Assembly (NCBI GenBank): GCA_025927935.1
Contig: JAICKM010000052.1
Location: forward strand, 1 to 17,370
DNA: 17,370 nt
Direction: 5' to 3'
Source: Chloroflexia bacterium
GTDB taxonomy: Bacteria; Chloroflexota; Chloroflexia; QHBQ01; JADMIH01
In this document: piece after piece, positions 1 to 10,404 of the stretch
Layout: every line of letters starts with the position of its first letter
Position numbering within the stretch: the first letter of the stretch is position 1
Made by a program: the position numbers and the translations under genes
Notes under the pieces: generated by a model
Seen by the model: only the letters and a program-made list of their open reading frames with translations
What the model was told of the DNA's origin: nothing
Database searches by the model: none

Positions 1-460
1 ACCGGCGGATCGCCGCGCCGATCACCGGGTCGAAGCTCTCGAAGGTGATCTCACCGGGCTGGCTGCCCATATAGTAGCCGCGTGGATCGACCAGCACAAT
101 CGTCGGCCAGGCGTCCACGGCGTAGGCCCGCCAGATGCGGAAGAAGCGGTCGTTCACCACCGGGTGGTCGATGCCCAGGCGCATGACCGCATCGCGCACA
201 TGCGCCGTGATGCGCTCCGCCGGATACTTGCCGGAGTGGACCCCGATCACCGCCAGTTCAGCCGGATACTTCTCTTCGAGCCGCCGCAACTGCGGCAGGA
301 TATGGATGCAGTTGATTCACCCATAGGTCCAGAAATCGAGCAACAGCAGCTTGCCGCGCAACTCGCCCAGAGTCAGCGGCTGATGGTCGACCGTGTTCAG
401 CCAATCGAGTCCCGTCTGGAACTCAGGCGCATGGACCACGCTGTTAAACATATCATCCAT
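1..460 (-). CDS. NHLRC2-type thioredoxin-like protein with in-frame UGA (probable selenoprotein), 3' part outside the window
   Basis: Starts at ATG (458-460), preceded by a strong Shine-Dalgarno AGGAGG ending about 8 nt upstream; 153 codons are visible and the gene runs off the left edge. The frame is open except for UGA at codon 48 (317-319). Sequence shown: [13 protein letters not shown] near the N-terminus, then [46 protein letters not shown] and [14 protein letters not shown]. This is the pattern of the thioredoxin domain that precedes NHL repeats in NHLRC2-like proteins, where the active site is usually WTYCCINC. UGA therefore sits on the first Cys of CxxC (UINC). No signal peptide is visible, so the protein is probably a cytoplasmic thiol-disulfide oxidoreductase. 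A near-consensus promoter lies at 517-544 and a SECIS-like hairpin follows the UGA. Family knowledge: Sec replaces Cys in many thioredoxin-fold proteins. Inference: residue 48 is selenocysteine. The alternatives, a Cys-to-stop mutation or a sequencing error, are less likely because a second such gene is present. Confidence 0.85.
281..298 (-). promoter_or_regulatory. SECIS-like stem-loop downstream of the thioredoxin UGA
   Basis: In the mRNA sense, the arms CUGCCGC and GCGGCGG form a 7-bp helix (one G-U pair) closing the loop AGUU. The loop begins 25 nt after the UGA codon and has G at its second position. Bacterial SECIS elements recognised by SelB lie inside the coding sequence, with the apical loop about 16-37 nt after UGA and a G near the start of the loop. 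Function is inferred from position and shape only. Confidence 0.6.
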
Positions 461-516
461 CAAGACCGCCTCCTACGCGCATGGCCGGGACCATACGCCG
501 TGTGTACCTCTCCAGC

Positions 517-3866: not shown

Positions 3867-5321
3867 TCAGACGGGGGGCGGGACCAATGCAATGCCCGCG
3901 CGGGGGGGAAGGCTAATTTCGAGCACATTGCCCTGCACCGTAGCCTGACCTTCCCCGATCAGGATCTGCCACGGCCCCTTGCCGGCCAGGCTGTCGCTCA
4001 GGGGTAACTGGAGATTGCGGCGGGCGCGGGCGTTGTTCAGCGCCACAATCACATAGTCATCGCCCAGGCTGCGCGCGAAGCCGTACACGCCGTCGGCCGC
4101 ATAAAGCGGTTGATAGGCCCCGGTGCGCAGCGCGGGGTGGGCATGGCGCAGGGCAATCGCCTGCTTGAAGAAGGCCAGCAGTTCCATGTTCCACTGAGCC
4201 TGGTCCCAGGGAAAAGTGCGCCGCGAATCGGGATCACGGGCGCCCTCGATGCCGATCTCGTCGCCGTAATAGATCGACGGCGCGCCGGGATAGCACATCT
4301 GGAACAGCGTCGCCAGTTGCAACGCCGTCACGTCGCCGCGCGCCATGGTCAAAAAGCGCGCCGTGTCGTGGCTGTCGAGCAAATTAAGCTGCACCTCGGT
4401 AATCTCGCGAGGATAGAGGTCGAGCAACCCGGCGATGGCCTGGGCAAACTCCGGCCCATCCAGCGGATGCGTCGGGTCCCATCCCTGGTCGCGGACCATG
4501 CTCTTATCCAGGTGGCTGCCGATGGCATACTCGATCACCCGCCCGCCGAAGAGGTAGTTCATCGTCGCGTCGAACTGGTCGCCCTGTAACCAGTGGCGCC
4601 CCTCCTCCCAGACCTCGCCGACGATGTAGGCTTCCGGGTTAATGGCTTTAACCCGCGTGCGGAACTCGCGCCAGAAGGCGTCATCGGCGATCTCGCCGGG
4701 CACGTCGAGGCGCCAGCCGTCAATGCCCTGGCGCAGCCAGTATTCGGCCACCCGCAACAGGAACTCGCGCACCGCCGGGGTGCCGGTATTGAACTTGGGC
4801 AGCGCGTGATAGCCCCACCAGCCGTGGTAGCCGGGCGGGCGCGACTCGTCATAGGCGTTAGGCGGCAACTCGTGAAAATAGAACCAGTCGAGATAGGGCG
4901 AGTACTTGCCGTTCTCCAGTGTATGGTTGAACTGGTAAAACCCGCGGCTGGCATGATTGAACACCCCGTCGAGGATCACGCGGATGTTGCGGGCGTGCGC
5001 GGCGTCCAGCATTGTGCGGAAGGCTTCATCGCCGCCCAGGATCGGGTCCACTTTGTAATAGTCATGCGTGTGATAGCGATGGTTCGCGGTGGACGCGAAG
5101 ATGGGCGTGAAGTAAATCGCGGTGATCCCCAGGTCTTGCAGGTAATCCAGGTGCTCAGTCACGCCCAGCAGATCGCCCCCTTTGAACCCATGCACCGTGG
5201 GCGGGGTGTCCCAGGGTTCCAGGTTCGACGGCTTCGGCACGGCTTCCGAGCGGGCAAAACGATCCGGGAAAATTTGATAGAAGACGGCATGCCGAACCCA
5301 TTCCGGCGTATTGATGCTCAA
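3867..5321 (-). CDS. GH13 alpha-amylase family glycosidase (neopullulanase/cyclomaltodextrinase-like)
   Basis: 484 residues from a TTG start. GGAGG lies 7 nt upstream of that TTG, and the promoter at 5416-5444 sits where a longer frame would begin, so longer versions starting at 5444 are unlikely. N-terminal signature: WVRHAVFYQIFPDRFARS. GH13 regions in order: region I DGVFNH, region II GIDGWRLDVPGE with nucleophile Asp206, region III YIVGEVWEE with acid/base Glu236, region IV NLLDSHD with Asp319. All three catalytic carboxylates are present. It lacks the N-terminal CBM34-like domain of classical neopullulanases and has only a short C-terminal beta domain (ending PPRAGIALVPPPV). No signal peptide is visible, so a cytoplasmic role in cleaving maltodextrins or cyclodextrins is expected. 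Exact substrate cannot be read from the sequence. It ends in TGA. Confidence 0.92.
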   Translation of the reverse strand: MSINTPEWVRHAVFYQIFPDRFARSEAVPKPSNLEPWDTPPTVHGFKGGDLLGVTEHLDYLQDLGITAIYFTPIFASTANHRYHTHDYYKVDPILGGDEAFRTMLDAAHARNIRVILDGVFNHASRGFYQFNHTLENGKYSPYLDWFYFHELPPNAYDESRPPGYHGWWGYHALPKFNTGTPAVREFLLRVAEYWLRQGIDGWRLDVPGEIADDAFWREFRTRVKAINPEAYIVGEVWEEGRHWLQGDQFDATMNYLFGGRVIEYAIGSHLDKSMVRDQGWDPTHPLDGPEFAQAIAGLLDLYPREITEVQLNLLDSHDTARFLTMARGDVTALQLATLFQMCYPGAPSIYYGDEIGIEGARDPDSRRTFPWDQAQWNMELLAFFKQAIALRHAHPALRTGAYQPLYAADGVYGFARSLGDDYVIVALNNARARRNLQLPLSDSLAGKGPWQILIGEGQATVQGNVLEISLPPRAGIALVPPPV

Positions 5322-5415
5322 CAGGGTTCCTCCATTGGATAGACAGTCTGGCCCACAGGCGGTGGTGCCCGGTCTCCGTTTGTGGTGCCGGCAACATTGT
5401 GGACCGATCTGTCGG

Positions 5416-5444
5416 ATTATACACTGTCGTGCCCGCGCTGTCAC
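5416..5444 (-). promoter_or_regulatory. promoter of the GH13 gene
   Basis: Minus strand: GTGACA (5439-5444), a 17-nt spacer, and a perfect TATAAT (5416-5421). The predicted start of transcription near 5409 gives a leader of about 88 nt before the TTG start codon. Confidence 0.65.
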
Positions 5445-5663
5445 GAATTATGACAGGTTTGATAGATTGCTGAGATACGACTAGCAAGCGCGTGAAATCG
5501 CGCACCAGGCCACGCGACGAGCGTCTCGATGCCGGATCATCTACAAGATTCGATCCAGGCCCGCTTTGTTACATACGTTTACCGGTTATCCACCCGCGCT
5601 GCGACCCGCGCCTGGTAGAGTAGAGTTGGCCCACTGCACATACCGGCTAAGGGCACTGGAATT

Positions 5664-5702
5664 GCTGAGCATAGCCGGAAGGCATCGCCGGCTATCGGCA
5701 GC
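5664..5702 (+). promoter_or_regulatory. two-part hairpin in the GAPDH upstream region
   Basis: Outer arms GCTG and CAGC (5664-5667, 5699-5702) and inner perfect 8-bp arms ATAGCCGG and CCGGCTAT (5671-5678, 5688-5695) are separated by a symmetric 3x3 internal loop. The apical loop has 9 nt. It lies about 90 nt upstream of the start codon, so it is probably a structured 5' leader element or an operator dyad. Confidence 0.45.
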
Positions 5703-5789
5703 GTAACGTAGCTGCCCGTGAAGACCGGCCAACACCGCGGGGATCAGGTGCGCGTTCACCTGACGGCCCGCAAAGCTAAGGAGTCTGAT

Positions 5790-6788
5790 ATGAACAACGT
5801 TGCTATCCACGGATTCGGCAGGATTGGGCGGATTGCCACGCGCGTCGCGCTACGCGGTGACTTGTTTACCCCGGTGGCCGTGTCCGATATTCAGGATCTG
5901 GCGACCCTCGGCGCTCTCTTCAAGGTCGACACCAACTACGGCGTGTGGCCCGAACCGGTCAGCACCGACGGCGACAAGCTGATCATCGGCGGGCGGGCCA
6001 TCCCCTACTTCAACACCAAGGAAGCGCTGCCCGACTGGGGGGCGCTGGGCGTGGATCTGGTCGTCGATTGCACCGGGCGGGCCACCAGGCGCCCCGTCGC
6101 CCAGGCCCATCTCGACCGCGGCGCCAAGCGCGTGCTGGTCAGCGCCGCCAGCAAGACGCTGCAAGATTGCGATGCGGTGCTGTTGCCGGGCATCAACTTC
6201 GCGAGCTACAAGCCGGGCGAGCACCACATCATCAGTCTGGCAAGCTGCACGACCAACGCGCTGGCCCCGGTCGTCAAAGTGCTGAAAGAGCAGTTCGGGC
6301 TTCAGCATGGTTTCTTCACCACTGTGCACGCCTACACCAATACACAATCGCTCACCGACCAGCCGATGAAAGACCGGCGCGATAGCTGGGCGGCAGCCGA
6401 GAACGTCATCCCCTCGTCGTCTGGGGCGGCCAAGGCGCTGAAGTTCATCTGGCCCGACCTGGACATCACCGGCAAGGCGTACCGCGTGCCCGTGCGGACC
6501 GGCAGCATCGTCGAACTGAACGTGCTGCTGGGGCGCGACACCACCGCCGAGGAAGTGAACGACGCCTTCCGCAAAGCGGCCGGTAGCGCCCCGTTCAAGG
6601 GCATCATGGACGTGCTGGAAGAGGAATGGGCCTCCAGCCGCATTGTCGGCGAGACGCACTCGTCGCTGATCGACCTGCCGCTGACCCAGGTCCTCGGCGG
6701 GCGCTTCTTGACCATCGCCGCCTGGTATGACAACGAAATGGGCTATGCGACGCGCCTGGCCGAGATGGCAAAGGCCGTCAGCGAGTAA
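5790..6788 (+). CDS. gap: glyceraldehyde-3-phosphate dehydrogenase
   Basis: 332 residues, the usual family length. The ATG at 5790 is chosen because AAGGAG lies 6 nt upstream and the Rossmann fold begins at once (NNVAIHGFGRIGR). An in-frame ATG 24 codons upstream lacks these features. Asp33 in AVSD favours NAD over NADP. The catalytic Cys153 is in SLASCTTNAL, His180 in TTVHAYT, and the C-terminal signature AAWYDNEMGYATRL is intact. The enzyme oxidises and phosphorylates glyceraldehyde-3-phosphate to 1,3-bisphosphoglycerate in glycolysis, or the reverse in gluconeogenesis. Here pgk does not follow; a terminator-like hairpin does, so the gene appears monocistronic. The loop normally reading PT(T/S)TGAAKA is PSSSGAAKA, a mild variant. 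Confidence 0.96.
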   Translation: MNNVAIHGFGRIGRIATRVALRGDLFTPVAVSDIQDLATLGALFKVDTNYGVWPEPVSTDGDKLIIGGRAIPYFNTKEALPDWGALGVDLVVDCTGRATRRPVAQAHLDRGAKRVLVSAASKTLQDCDAVLLPGINFASYKPGEHHIISLASCTTNALAPVVKVLKEQFGLQHGFFTTVHAYTNTQSLTDQPMKDRRDSWAAAENVIPSSSGAAKALKFIWPDLDITGKAYRVPVRTGSIVELNVLLGRDTTAEEVNDAFRKAAGSAPFKGIMDVLEEEWASSRIVGETHSSLIDLPLTQVLGGRFLTIAAWYDNEMGYATRLAEMAKAVSE

Positions 6789-6814
6789 CCCCGCCTTACC
6801 CGAACAAACTCGCG

Positions 6815-6841
6815 CAGGGGCCGGCCCAATGCCGGCCCCTG
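6815..6841 (+). terminator. hairpin terminator after gap
   Basis: A perfect 11-bp GC-rich stem, CAGGGGCCGGC with GCCGGCCCCTG, closes the loop CCAAT 26 nt after the stop codon and is followed by TCGTCATCCT. It lacks a clean T-run but is well placed. Confidence 0.6.
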
Positions 6842-6906
6842 TCGTCATCCTGCGTGGCCCTTCCGGCAACCGCGCCCCGGCGGCCAGCGCCCGCCCCGCG
6901 CGCCTT

Positions 6907-6931
6907 GTAGGGGCCGGTTTCAAACCGGCCC
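6907..6931. repeat. REP-like palindrome
   Basis: GGGCCGGTTT, one C, then AAACCGGCCC, preceded by GTAG. Short palindromes of the form GTAGGGGC-GGTTT-AAACC-GCCCC are often dispersed in intergenic DNA of high-GC bacteria. Only one copy is in this window, so a repeat family is inferred, not shown. Confidence 0.45.
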
Positions 6932-6954
6932 GCGCCGTGACCGGGATGGCGCAA

Positions 6955-6992
6955 CAAAACCGGACCCTTGTACCGGGTGGTACAAGGGGTCC
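6955..6992 (-). terminator. terminator of the VanW-family gene
   Basis: On the minus strand a 13-bp stem (GGACCCCTTGTACC with GGTACAAGGGTCC, one bulged C) closes a 4-nt loop. It is followed by GGTTTTGTT, about 25 nt past the stop codon of the VanW-family gene. Confidence 0.7.
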
Positions 6993-7017
6993 AAGCGTAT
7001 ACGCAATCAGCCGGGGC

Positions 7018-9243
7018 TTACGGCGCGGACGACGCGGGGCCGGTGCCGGTTACATAGGTGTCATGCGACGGCAGATAGGTGCCCTGGGCGTGCCAATCGT
7101 CGATCTTCGCGCCGGTCTTGTCAAACACCTGGCGGTGAATGTCCGAGGTAAAGCCGTCCTGCGCGTGCTCGACCATGACCTTCCGCCCCGCCGGCAGCTT
7201 ATCGGAGGTCTGCTGTCGCGGTGTGTGGTCGGTGCGCACAACATTGGTGATCACCGGCTGATCGACCTTGACCTTCCAGCCGGGATTGGTGCCCCATAGT
7301 TCCACGCGCACGTTCTGATGGTCGCCAATCGCCCGGATCAGCAGCCAGTTGCCCGTGGTGTTCTTGAAGCGGAAGTCCGAGTCCGGGGGCGAGATCGTCG
7401 CGTCCAGACCCTGCATGCCGAGCGGCTTGAGCCCGTAGCTCGCAATCCAGTAACTATGGTGGTGGCGCTCGACAATCGGCAGGCCGGCCCAGAAGACCGG
7501 GTGGAAGAGCGTGGTCGCCACCTGGCAGATGCCACCCGCTTCCGAGGGAATGGTCGTCGCGTTCCCGGCCTGGACCAGGATAGCCCAGCCCATCTTGAAC
7601 CCGGCGTCCAAAGTCAGTTCGCCGAGCGCGTCGTTCGTGCTAAAGGTGCCGCCAGGCGGGATCAGCCAGCCGTCCAGCTTTTGCGCGCCCAGGGTCACGT
7701 TCCAGTTGCGCTCCGGCGAGGAACCGCCGTAGTAGGTGCTGTCGGCCTGGAGGAGATCGGGCGTCAGGATCTGGTTGGCCTGATCCGTCGCGGCGAATTG
7801 CGGCTTGACCGTGATCAGGGTTAGATCGGCTGTCTTCTTACTGTTCAGGATTGCGTCCTTGATCGCCGCCGCGGTCTTGTCCTGATCGACCCGGATACCA
7901 TCGGCCGGCTGGTGCACCAGGGTGATCTGGTTGTTCACCAGGCGATACGTGGCGTTTTGCGCCGGCACATCGACATCGTCGGCAACCTGGGCGGCGAGGC
8001 GGGCCAGATCCCGATCATTCACCGTGATCTGGTACGGCGCGGCGGCTCCCGCCGGACTCGGATCAACATACAGGATCAACGCGAGCCGGCGGCCCGTAAT
8101 CTGGTACGTCTTCCCGCCGCCCGACAGCGTGAGACCATCACGCATGGCGGCGTCCAATTGATCTTTCAGCGGCTGCAGCATGGCGGCACTGACCGCAGCG
8201 GGCACGGAATCCAGCGTCAATTCGGCGGAACGGGTATCACCATCCGCGGCGGCGGCTTGCGCCAGCGGCAGCGAAGCGGCGACGTTCAACTGCTGCCCGG
8301 CCACATCGGGGGTCAGGCTCGCCGAGGTCGCATAATTGGGCAACGCGAGGACAGCATCCTTGGGATCGCGCTTGAGGTCAGCAGCCAGCCCCTGCACAAA
8401 AGAGGTCAGCTTTGCCTCGTCCAGCTTATCGGCGACCACCGGGGCGCCTGCCGCATCAGTGCTAATCTGGAGCCAGGTGCGCAGGGTCGACGGCGGCACG
8501 GTCCAGCTAAGTACCTTGCCGTCCGGTCCCGGGCCGGTCAACGTCAGCGGCTTATCCGCTAAGCGGTGGACCATGCCCAGCGCGGGCGCGACGGCGCTGT
8601 CGGACACCTGGGGCAGCACCTCCGCCACCTTGACCGTGATTTCGCTAAACGGATAGGTCTGGGTCGCGGCCTCCAGCGCCTGCCAGGTCGCGTCCACATC
8701 CAGCCGGCGCCCATTCTGCGCCGCGCCCACCCGCACGCCGTCGGCGTCCACGCTAAGCTCAGCATTGCGCGGCGGCACGGCCACGTCTTTGGCCACGGTC
8801 TGGAGGGCCTGCTCGGCGGTGGAGCGGTCGCGCTTCACCACCAGCGGGATGGCAGGGGGCGCGGCATTGCGGCCCGCCTGTTGCGCCGCGTGGGCGGTTG
8901 CCGCCGCGTCAAAGCTCAGCCCCAGTTCGCGGGCGGTGAAGGTCCAGACCTGGGCATTGTAGCGCAAGACCACCTGGCTATCGGCCAACCCGGCAAAATG
9001 CTGCTCGATGGCGGCCTCGGCCTCCCCCGTCTTCATGCCGGCCACCGGTAGCCCGGCCACCGCCACCCCCTGGGGCACCCGCGACAGCGCATCCTGCCAT
9101 TGCAGGAACCCGGCGCCCGCGCCCAACAGCAAGAGTACGCCCGCGATCAGCAGGACGATCCGCCCGCGCCCAGCGGTCCACCCGCCGGCGCGCCGATTAG
9201 CCGGGGAGTCCGGCTGCGTGGTAAGTAGGGTCTTGGTTGCCAT
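7018..9243 (-). CDS. membrane-anchored VanW-domain protein with peptidoglycan-binding-like repeats and G5-like C-terminus
   Basis: 741 residues; GAGGA lies about 11 nt before the ATG. After a short charged N-terminus, one membrane helix spans residues about 28-46 (GRIVLLIAGVLLLLGAGAGFL). The long middle part (about 55-480) contains repeated modules of the PG_binding_4 type found before VanW domains; VWTFTARELGLSFD is one example. The VanW core is near 505-640, with LIPPGGTFSTND and the hallmark SEAGGICQVATTLFH (GGICQ at 570), then ERHHHSYWI. The last about 80 residues (GRKVMVEHAQDG through YLPSHDTYV) look G5-like. Proteins of this layout are extracytoplasmic and wall-associated; VanW's biochemical activity is not settled. 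It has its own promoter (9354-9382) and terminator, so it is probably a single-gene unit. Confidence 0.85.
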   Translation of the reverse strand: MATKTLLTTQPDSPANRRAGGWTAGRGRIVLLIAGVLLLLGAGAGFLQWQDALSRVPQGVAVAGLPVAGMKTGEAEAAIEQHFAGLADSQVVLRYNAQVWTFTARELGLSFDAAATAHAAQQAGRNAAPPAIPLVVKRDRSTAEQALQTVAKDVAVPPRNAELSVDADGVRVGAAQNGRRLDVDATWQALEAATQTYPFSEITVKVAEVLPQVSDSAVAPALGMVHRLADKPLTLTGPGPDGKVLSWTVPPSTLRTWLQISTDAAGAPVVADKLDEAKLTSFVQGLAADLKRDPKDAVLALPNYATSASLTPDVAGQQLNVAASLPLAQAAAADGDTRSAELTLDSVPAAVSAAMLQPLKDQLDAAMRDGLTLSGGGKTYQITGRRLALILYVDPSPAGAAAPYQITVNDRDLARLAAQVADDVDVPAQNATYRLVNNQITLVHQPADGIRVDQDKTAAAIKDAILNSKKTADLTLITVKPQFAATDQANQILTPDLLQADSTYYGGSSPERNWNVTLGAQKLDGWLIPPGGTFSTNDALGELTLDAGFKMGWAILVQAGNATTIPSEAGGICQVATTLFHPVFWAGLPIVERHHHSYWIASYGLKPLGMQGLDATISPPDSDFRFKNTTGNWLLIRAIGDHQNVRVELWGTNPGWKVKVDQPVITNVVRTDHTPRQQTSDKLPAGRKVMVEHAQDGFTSDIHRQVFDKTGAKIDDWHAQGTYLPSHDTYVTGTGPASSAP

Positions 9244-9502: not shown

Positions 9503-9570
9503 CGTTTGCCGCGCCAAATGGGCGCGGCAAACGCAAACGGCGCTCCGTTGAGTACGGAGCGCCGTTTGCG
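9503..9570 (-). terminator. pair of adjacent perfect hairpins after the rhodanese gene
   Basis: The first, 18 nt past the stop codon, has a 17-bp perfect stem (9532-9548 with 9554-9570, 5-nt loop). The second has a 13-bp perfect stem (9503-9515 with 9521-9533, 5-nt loop). The two overlap by two bases and share related sequence (GGCAAACG, CAAACGGCG), so they could not both be complete at once. No T-run follows. They probably terminate or protect the rhodanese transcript. Confidence 0.6.
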
Positions 9571-9588
9571 ACTGCAACTTGAACCGTC

Positions 9589-10404
9589 TTATGGATTCGG
9601 GGTAACGACCACATTACCATTGGACGGCAAGTTGATGATCAGCGGGGTGTTGGTCGCCGCACCGGGCGGCGTGGTCGGCCCGGGTGTGGCGATGACCACT
9701 GGATAACCCGCGTCCTGCCACGCGTGCCAGCCGCCCAACAACACCTGCAACTTGTCGTAGCTAAAGCCGTATTGATCGTGAAGCTTTTGCGCCACACGGG
9801 CGCTTTCATTTTCAGCCGGTCATTGGCAGTAGGCGATAATCAGCTTGTCCTTGGGCAATTCGGCAACCCGCGCATCCACGTCGGATTCGGGGAAGCTGAT
9901 CGCGCCCGTGATATGCCCGGCGTCAAAGGCGTCTTTGGCGCGCACATCGAGGATCAACGGGCGCTTGGCCGGGTCATCATACAGGGCCTTAAACTCATCC
10001 AGCGCCATACGCGGCGGTTGGTCGGTCGCCGGTGCGGCGGTCGCGTCGCTGGCGGCAGCGGCCGGCGTGCTGGTCGGCAGCGGGGCCGCCGCGCCGGAAT
10101 TCGCGCCGGGGTTGGCGCCGCCTGGCGCGGTCGTCCCGGTGCTTGCGTTATTACTGAGCAGGAACACCGCCATCAGTCCCGCGATCAACAACACCACCAC
10201 CGCGCTCACCGCGAGGGGGAAGGTATCCCGCTGCGTGGCGGGACGCGGCGCGGGGCGGCGACTTGCCACGGTAGCCGGCGGCGCGGGGCGCGGGGCCGGG
10301 CGCGCGGCGGGGCGCGGGGCGGGTCGCGGGGCGCGGGGCGGCGGGGGAATATAATCTTCCTCCTCGTCGCCTTCCTCCCGTTCTCCGGGCCAATCTCGAC
10401 TCAT
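9589..10404 (-). CDS. membrane-anchored rhodanese with in-frame UGA (probable selenoprotein)
   Basis: Read through the UGA at 9820-9822, the gene encodes 271 residues with Sec at position 195. GGGAG precedes the ATG. Residues 1-60 are acidic and then Arg/Pro/Ala-rich (probably cytoplasmic), a membrane helix spans about 62-84, and a Pro/Ala/Thr linker follows. The rhodanese domain is at about 130-240: MALDEFKALYDD, LILDVRAKDAFDAGHITGAI, then IIAYCQ-UGA-PAENESARVAQ and VLLGGWHAWQDAGYPV. Homologues of this type carry YCxCP(x)E..SA, so UGA replaces the second Cys. Counting back from the conserved Ser-Ala, this position aligns with the persulfide-forming Cys of canonical rhodaneses. A SECIS-like hairpin follows. 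The short tail (to the TAA at 9589) is Pro/Thr/Asn-rich. Inferred role: an extracytoplasmic sulfur- or selenium-transfer or thiol redox protein. Without read-through it would lose the end of its fold. Confidence 0.85.
9789..9803 (-). promoter_or_regulatory. SECIS-like stem-loop downstream of the rhodanese UGA
   Basis: In the mRNA sense GCGCC pairs with GGCGC, closing the 5-nt loop CGUGU. The loop begins 21 nt after UGA and has G at its second position. The stem is short, but distance and loop match bacterial SECIS rules, as does the element in the thioredoxin gene. Confidence 0.55.

Follow-up and report, generated by a model that had tools for sequence, protein, structure and literature searches.

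The question raised by this locus is whether an in-frame TGA in a contig of a Chloroflexia bacterium ends a protein of 194 residues or is read as selenocysteine (Sec) in the middle of a rhodanese. The whole stretch of DNA that was analysed, 17,370 nt in length, is referred to as the window. A 194-codon ORF (10404..9820, minus strand) stops at the TGA, and its frame continues to a TAA at 9589. The read-through product would have 271 residues with U at residue 195, the sole in-frame UGA of the frame. The Pfam profile PF00581 (rhodanese) covers residues 136–231 above its gathering score with an E-value of 2.4e-15, the predicted fold is that of a rhodanese, and the UGA falls in mid-domain. The initial annotation had assigned the 194-codon frame and the frame downstream to a single rhodanese domain, and the common minus-strand frame and the profile spanning the UGA bear this out. 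The protein sequence around the predicted Sec is DKLIIAYC-Q-U-PAENESARVAQKL. The features are listed in Table 1. The arms of the inverted repeats found 3' of the gene are 9503–9515/9521–9533 (100%) and 9527–9548/9554–9575 (91%).

Table 1. Features of the putative selenoprotein gene and of a second UGA gene, in window coordinates.
Feature	Position	Strand	Evidence
Whole predicted selenoprotein gene, 271 codons and TAA stop	9589..10404	-	Single-UGA frame; Pfam rhodanese across the UGA
In-frame UGA, codon 195, predicted to be read as Sec	9820..9822	-	80/84 best homologues stop here; 40 other loci
SECIS-type hairpin GCGCC-CGUGU-GGCGC	9789..9803	-	Pairing in 41/41 loci, compensatory changes, CGT bias
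Cys193 codon, first of the C-x-U pair	9826..9828	-	hhalign; invariant in the 16-sequence alignment A5
Predicted membrane helix, residues 63–88	10141..10218	-	Hydropathy; predicted helix; flanking charges
Ala/Pro/Thr/Gly-rich linker, residues ~89–129	10018..10140	-	pLDDT <50 at 87–125; composition
Rhodanese domain, residues ~130–241, split by the UGA	9682..10017	-	
Low-confidence C-terminal tail, residues 244–271	9592..9675	-	pLDDT <50 nearly throughout
Two strong inverted repeats, possible transcription terminator	9503..9575	-	Just after the rhodanese gene
Second UGA gene, thioredoxin-like, WTYG-U-INC	2..472	-	UGA at 317–319; cut by the window end

Residues 126–245 were used as a query against 5.8 billion predicted proteins, and 104 matches were obtained. 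As many as 81 of them end at YCx, where x is Q (72), A (6), S (2), or N (1). Among the closest 84 homologues (P0003–P0086), 80 end exactly at the position of the UGA, and the remaining four are P0003 and P0004 with Trp, P0005 with Cys, and P0066, which is a fragment. P0003 and P0004 are full length. Their near twins by eye, P0011 and P0012, stop at the Sec site, and thus, judged from the protein entries alone, the W in P0003 and P0004 is probably a TGA translated under table 4. Over the searched region the window frame is 75% identical to P0003 and 71% to P0004, and the conservation extends beyond the UGA. The Cys homologue P0005, a single protein entry, reads YCACPAEETSVRVA; it has Cys at the very site where the UGA had been proposed to replace the second Cys of the loop. 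The UGA therefore occupies a conserved site of a conserved domain with coding conservation on both sides, as expected of a bacterial selenoprotein, and the Cys counterpart at this site comes from one protein only. Among 20 stop-free homologues, the loops readable by pattern were of other types, and nine had no pattern match.

In DNA sequences, 40 further loci carry UGA at the corresponding codon, the best relatives being about 40–50% identical. Thirty-five loci were recovered when species genomes were scanned with the read-through alignment; none is close, the best hit by score being 44% identical, and across the genomes scanned the identity of DNA relatives does not exceed 51%. One locus from an Acidobacteria MAG (L001) also carries UGA at the site. 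In one class (199 genomes), an in-frame TGA is present in 32 of the best 33 rows, and stop-free rhodanese homologues become common farther down the match list of this class. All 16 matches at E ≤1e-17 carry TGA in a draw of 400 genomes from the phylum, which partly overlaps the 199-genome set. TGA was seen in 10 of 15 rows in an order of 13 genomes and in 10 of 27 rows in a class of 158 genomes, the others (5/15 and 17/27) being stop-free rhodaneses. At least three UGA-bearing rhodanese matches lie on one 4.4-Mb contig (C1) of the genome G029.

The motif YC-x-U...SA matched 43 times among the loci and the window, and 41 non-identical loci remained after the removal of two identical ones. TGA loci with a second nearby stop or another loop motif (e.g., L038, L070, L074, and L087–L090) were excluded. 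The selection by a motif including Ser/Thr-Ala leaves codon choice, the Arg residue, and base pairing as the independent characters. Neither Cys at the UGA site nor a Cys-type DNA control with the same SAR motif was found among the 41 motif matches. In one further locus, L100 from G585, the first Cys is retained and Gln takes the position of Sec. Among the forms seen in DNA, it alone lacks both Sec and Cys at this position; it is also the only non-Sec control of its type, and it looks as if Sec was lost there.

The reading of the UGA as Trp, through a recoded genetic code or UGA suppression, could appeal to the W at the site in P0003 and P0004, but it is scarcely credible, given that the 14 other genes of the window contain 80 UGG and no in-frame UGA while four of them end in TGA, that the tRNA-Trp in the window has the anticodon CCA, that P0005 has Cys and the twins P0011 and P0012 stop at the site, and that the SECIS is conserved. 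Judged from these codons and this anticodon, UGA is not a Trp codon here.

The window contains another UGA gene, whose frame (472..2) matches Pfam Thioredoxin_8. One internal TGA is present in 8 of 12 matches of this frame from 30 genomes, the best being 69% identical. In the predicted folds, a hairpin loop lies at one place in the window and in all eight UGA forms, with a loop of 4 nt in seven of the eight and 6 nt in one. Three of four Cys forms are without the hairpin, and the fourth, L166, has a stable one with its loop at the same place; this hairpin control is thus imperfect. The use of Sec in this genome is supported by the occurrence, within 17 kb, of two UGA codons that are unrelated to each other and both fall on redox sites. 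The thioredoxin-like frame is of the TlpA/ResA type and was probably the first Sec candidate of the initial annotation. The plus strand at 787–1440 encodes a Cupredoxin-like protein (Pfam Cupredoxin_1), which has an extended linker of Pro/Thr/Ala and by eye resembles a lipoprotein.

A candidate bacterial SECIS element was recognized just downstream of the UGA of the rhodanese gene. The hairpin (9803–9789) begins 16 nt after the UGA and consists of the stem GCGCC, the loop CGUGU, and the stem GGCGC, so that a G is in the apical loop; this G follows the UGA after 22 nt. Spacing and loop are within the usual limits for bacterial elements of this kind. A SECIS-like hairpin had been placed 21 nt from the UGA; the hairpin itself holds, and the distance is close, the first stem base being the 20th from the U of UGA. 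Across the 41 loci, window included, the alignment of the 48 nt from the UGA onward has no gaps. The stem columns (20–24/30–34) are paired in 205 of 205 cells, in all 41 loci and with one fixed spacing, and three of the five stem pairs are altered on both sides (6 cells). None of 500 shuffles matched the values of pairing or covariation, and pairing falls to 20–60% when the partner columns are slid.

Since the stem overlaps the protein motif Ser-Ala-Arg-x-Ala, codon choice provides a clean test. The Arg codon inside the hairpin is CGT in 39 of 40 loci, compared with 31 of 180 (17%) elsewhere in these domains (p 5e-29), and the Ser codon is AGC or AGT in 40 of 41 loci against a background of 41%. 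The loci are related, and the p values for hairpin and codons are therefore too small (optimistic); the CGT bias in these alignments is extreme despite the kinship. In L100, the Arg codon is AGG instead of CGT, and the hairpin is lost by eye. Compared with synonymous recoding, in which the null draws codons by GC3 only, the window hairpin alone is modestly better (p 0.028), and 11 of 24 loci, window included, reach p ≤0.05 (combined p 1e-10). The energy of the whole 48-nt segment gives a weak combined p of 0.0014. Because of this weakness and of the GC3-only null, the pairing and the codon counts are relied upon. When the 58 nt from the UGA are folded whole, their stability does not exceed that of shuffled sequences (z −0.42); the signal is confined to the local hairpin in its proper position.

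These observations bear on the simplest alternative, in which a nonsense mutation or a sequencing error has left a pseudogene or a product of 194 residues only. Most public predictions stop at the UGA, and the 194-residue ORF is clean under table 11, as this alternative would have it. It is nevertheless very improbable, because a stop at this codon is shared by dozens of distinct assemblies and lineages, the frame after the UGA is conserved at the identities to P0003 and P0004 given above, the part behind the UGA is predicted to fold as half of the domain with pLDDT ~95, and the hairpin covaries. With the UGA conserved, the hairpin covarying, and P0005 as a Cys homologue, the central proposal of the initial annotation is upheld, namely that a membrane-anchored rhodanese carries Sec in a C-Q-U loop and has a SECIS element; the Sec machinery of the two nearest genomes found adds to it. 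By sequence comparison, the UGA is almost certainly read as Sec.

The nearness of genomes was estimated with ribosomal protein L1 among 301 drawn genomes, and the nearest were G466 (71%), G272 (70%), and G336 (68%). G272 and G466 contain tRNA-Sec (71.9 and 72.2 bits; cut-off 47), SelB (363 and 368 bits; cut-off 242), and SelA (544 and 566 bits; cut-off 268), and SelA was found in G336 with 543 bits. UGA-type rhodaneses are present in G272. In G466, no rhodanese was matched at E 1e-12, and no match of the thioredoxin-like frame of the window was seen at E 1e-15. SelB is above the cut-off in 160 of the 199 genomes of one class and in 31 of 40 genomes of another set, and SelA in 28 of 30 genomes. 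Among the matches listed and by a hand tally on E-values, SelB is present in 39 of 46 UGA-bearing genomes versus 121 of 153 others; in a hand tally of the same kind on the matches listed, SelB or a tRNA-Sec of ≥60 bits is present in 45 of the 46. This threshold of ≥60 bits was used for co-occurrence, and the tRNA-Sec cut-off itself is possibly unspecific, as 5 of 14 control genomes pass it. In the searches of the 13-genome order and the 158-genome class, SelB passes in 12 of 14 UGA-bearing genomes versus 19 of 26 others. The machinery is near universal in these groups, so that its co-occurrence with the UGA rhodanese hardly discriminates; its presence in relatives is consistent with Sec decoding.

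The predicted protein is anchored by a membrane segment with a hydropathy of 2.91 over 19 residues. The 20 residues before the predicted helix contain 4 K/R and 1 D/E, and the 45 residues after it contain no K/R. With 11 K/R and 10 D/E, the complete N-terminal tail carries almost no net charge, and the topology thus rests on the 20 helix-flanking residues and on the relatives. By hand count, a strongly hydrophobic segment precedes the rhodanese domain in 36 of the 41 loci, and by eye a lipobox-like N-terminus is seen in five. In P0022, a redoxin/TlpA-type domain (WCPPC) stands ahead of the rhodanese, and in the database this protein breaks off at the site of the UGA. From these sequence features, the rhodanese domain is highly likely to be extracytoplasmic. 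A Pro/Arg-rich N-terminus would lie in the cytoplasm, followed by the single membrane helix, the flexible linker, and the rhodanese outside the cytoplasm. The selenol had been suggested to face outward, and this is likely from the flanking charges and the relatives; that such an arrangement would be unusual does not hold, and membrane anchoring as an oddity of the window protein was rejected, given the hydrophobic segment in most of the loci. Exported bacterial selenoproteins exist, such as formate dehydrogenase-N. In five loci (L107, L108, L116, L122, and L125), a Sec-type rhodanese forms the C-terminus of a long membrane protein; L107 is a Na/H exchanger by Pfam, and the N-termini of the other four are similar by eye.

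Rhodaneses of other kinds were observed near Sec genes in two genomes. L151 (G076:C101, ~4091–8530) is a cluster with a UGSC-type frame interrupted by a single in-frame UGA, a rhodanese frame containing two UGA codons (YCDCP when read as Cys), a MauE/DoxX-like frame (by eye), and tRNA-Sec. In L150 (G093:C69, 5744–9703), a Cys-type lipoprotein-like rhodanese, a DoxX/MauE-like frame (by eye), tRNA-Sec, and SelB stand in a row.

If the domain served selenium, as a carrier or sensor for Sec synthesis, and not sulfur redox, a lipoprotein-like rhodanese near tRNA-Sec (G076) or near tRNA-Sec and SelB (G093) would be in keeping with such a role. This is very unlikely, however, for the window protein: judged by their loops, the rhodaneses of G076 and G093 are from different subfamilies, the 17-kb window showed no gene of the Sec machinery, and an exported domain would be badly placed to feed the cytoplasmic SelD.

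The role of Sec195 depends on how the active-site loop, Cys193-Gln-Sec195-Pro, is aligned with ordinary rhodaneses. A count that starts at Ser-Ala and runs backwards matches Sec195 with the classical rhodanese Cys, and one that runs forward from beta-4 (PKDKxxxxxC) matches Cys193 with the catalytic Cys. Nine ordinary rhodanese loci were tried, and four from the same class were read and used in hhalign, which equates Cys193 with the catalytic Cys and leaves a two-residue gap on Sec195-Pro196. HMMER alignments with solved structures are split: 6mxv and the second domain of 1yt8 favour Sec195, and 3tp9 favours Cys193. The UGA had been said to align with the catalytic persulfide Cys; this is right for the count from Ser-Ala but not for the beta-4 count or the profile–profile alignment.

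A true selenoprotein might thus still be a classical sulfurtransferase, with Sec195 catalytic through a Se-S persulfide and Cys193 only helping. The back-count from Ser-Ala, which puts Sec in the canonical place, and the gapless HMMER alignments with 6mxv and 1yt8 agree with this. Against it, hhalign with the four ordinary rhodaneses and the 3tp9 alignment place Cys193 there, the predicted strand ends at residue 192, and L100 keeps the first Cys where Gln replaces Sec; catalysis by Sec195 is accordingly possible but rather doubtful. Cys193 is invariant in all 16 sequences of the alignment A5. In a classical sulfurtransferase, the helix is preceded by a six-residue loop with one catalytic Cys, while the window protein has C-x-U and a loop longer by two. 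We infer from the sequences that Cys193 is the canonical Cys and Sec195 a resolving partner in the enlarged loop.

With Cys193 and Sec195 in these roles, a redox mechanism can be proposed. The UGA (9820–9822) would be decoded as Sec by SelB and tRNA-Sec at the bacterial SECIS hairpin 16 nt downstream. Outside the cytoplasm, sulfane sulfur or a different product of thiol oxidation would be loaded onto Cys193. Sec195 would then resolve the loaded Cys193 as a Cys-S-Se-Sec bridge, with release of sulfide, and a partner of the TlpA/thioredoxin type would re-reduce the S-Se bridge. The fusion in P0022 and the rhodanese/DsbD-type selenoprotein TsoB point to extracytoplasmic thiol redox. That the C-x-U pair acts as a redox couple in this way is a tentative proposal, with nearly even chances.

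Taken together, one exported C-Q-U rhodanese selenoprotein of 271 residues is very probably the best explanation of the whole. The main support is comparative, from the conserved UGA, the SECIS, and the domain; export is likely, and the redox steps are conjectural. In a broader and more speculative reading, which is possible though less likely than not, a large Chloroflexota family of extracytoplasmic C-x-Sec rhodaneses, hidden by gene callers that stop at UGA, would comprise selenium-dependent persulfide/sulfane-sulfur reductases. They would have an enlarged active-site loop and receive electrons from TlpA/thioredoxin partners, which may sometimes be Sec proteins as in the window, and the modules might be joined to redoxin domains, zinc ribbons, or cation/proton antiporters. 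If true, this would be a selenium-based cell-surface thiol-redox system not described as such. Should the C-x-U pair indeed have its redox role outside the cytoplasm, this would represent a defined and testable use of selenium at the Chloroflexota surface. In public annotation, this widespread selenoprotein branch appears for the most part in truncated form (80 of the 84 closest relatives), and two more close relatives, P0003 and P0004, carry a probably false Trp.

Among rhodaneses of solved structure, the C-terminal domain of 3tp9 is an ordinary one, which by alignment has one catalytic Cys in a shorter loop and no Sec. GlpE (1gmx), an ordinary single-domain rhodanese, likewise has one catalytic Cys in a shorter loop and no Sec. 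Another rhodanese selenoprotein is TsoB (NF045694, rhodanese/DsbD fusion-like, UxxxxU), in which, by its name, a rhodanese is joined to a transmembrane thiol-electron module. The window protein has one membrane helix and one Sec, and scores 23.2 bits against this model, far under the cut-off of 805.

The best NCBIfam model for the window protein is NF041203 (rhodanese_LYCAU, "rhodanese-related (seleno)protein"), with which it shares the C-x-U rhodanese loop. The score is 82.2 bits, below the equivalog cut-off of 115. Nine relatives, counted without a short L100 piece that had no match, score 62.4–105.9 bits, and NF041203 is the top model in eight of them; in L107, antiporter models rank ahead of it. 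All ten UGA members scanned (the window protein and nine relatives) are thus below the cut-off, and a broader NF041203 model would capture these proteins together with the Sec site. The window protein has YCQU in place of the LYCAU of the model, and its branch differs from NF041203 by a 3-residue insertion after the post-loop helix and by the long tail of low confidence. Within the window branch, a membrane helix near the N-terminus is the rule.

In two reviews, a CxU rhodanese selenoprotein is listed as rhodanese-like form 3 or COG0607 form 2 (PMC13188914, PMC9312934). The Sargasso Sea and GOS surveys include Sec sulfurtransferases (COG2897, COG0607) (PMC1088965, PMC2398784), in which, as in the window, a UGA-coded Sec occurs in a rhodanese-type protein; the sulfurtransferase rows consulted in the GOS table give no motif ("-"). 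A marine deltaproteobacterium is noted to have a Sec rhodanese-like domain (PMC8318568), and an early survey reported three selenoproteins from Chloroflexi (PMC1794560). In the available extracts of the open-licence literature, the CxU form is named and the window branch is not, and a deep-learning survey of groundwater genomes, cited in PMC13188914, may include such genes. CxU rhodanese selenoproteins in general are therefore already known as a kind; the window protein would act in the manner of the NF041203 type, but by the cut-off of that model it is not a member of NF041203. Within the known CxU (NF041203-type) rhodanese selenoproteins, the window gene probably stands for a divergent branch whose members are probably exported.
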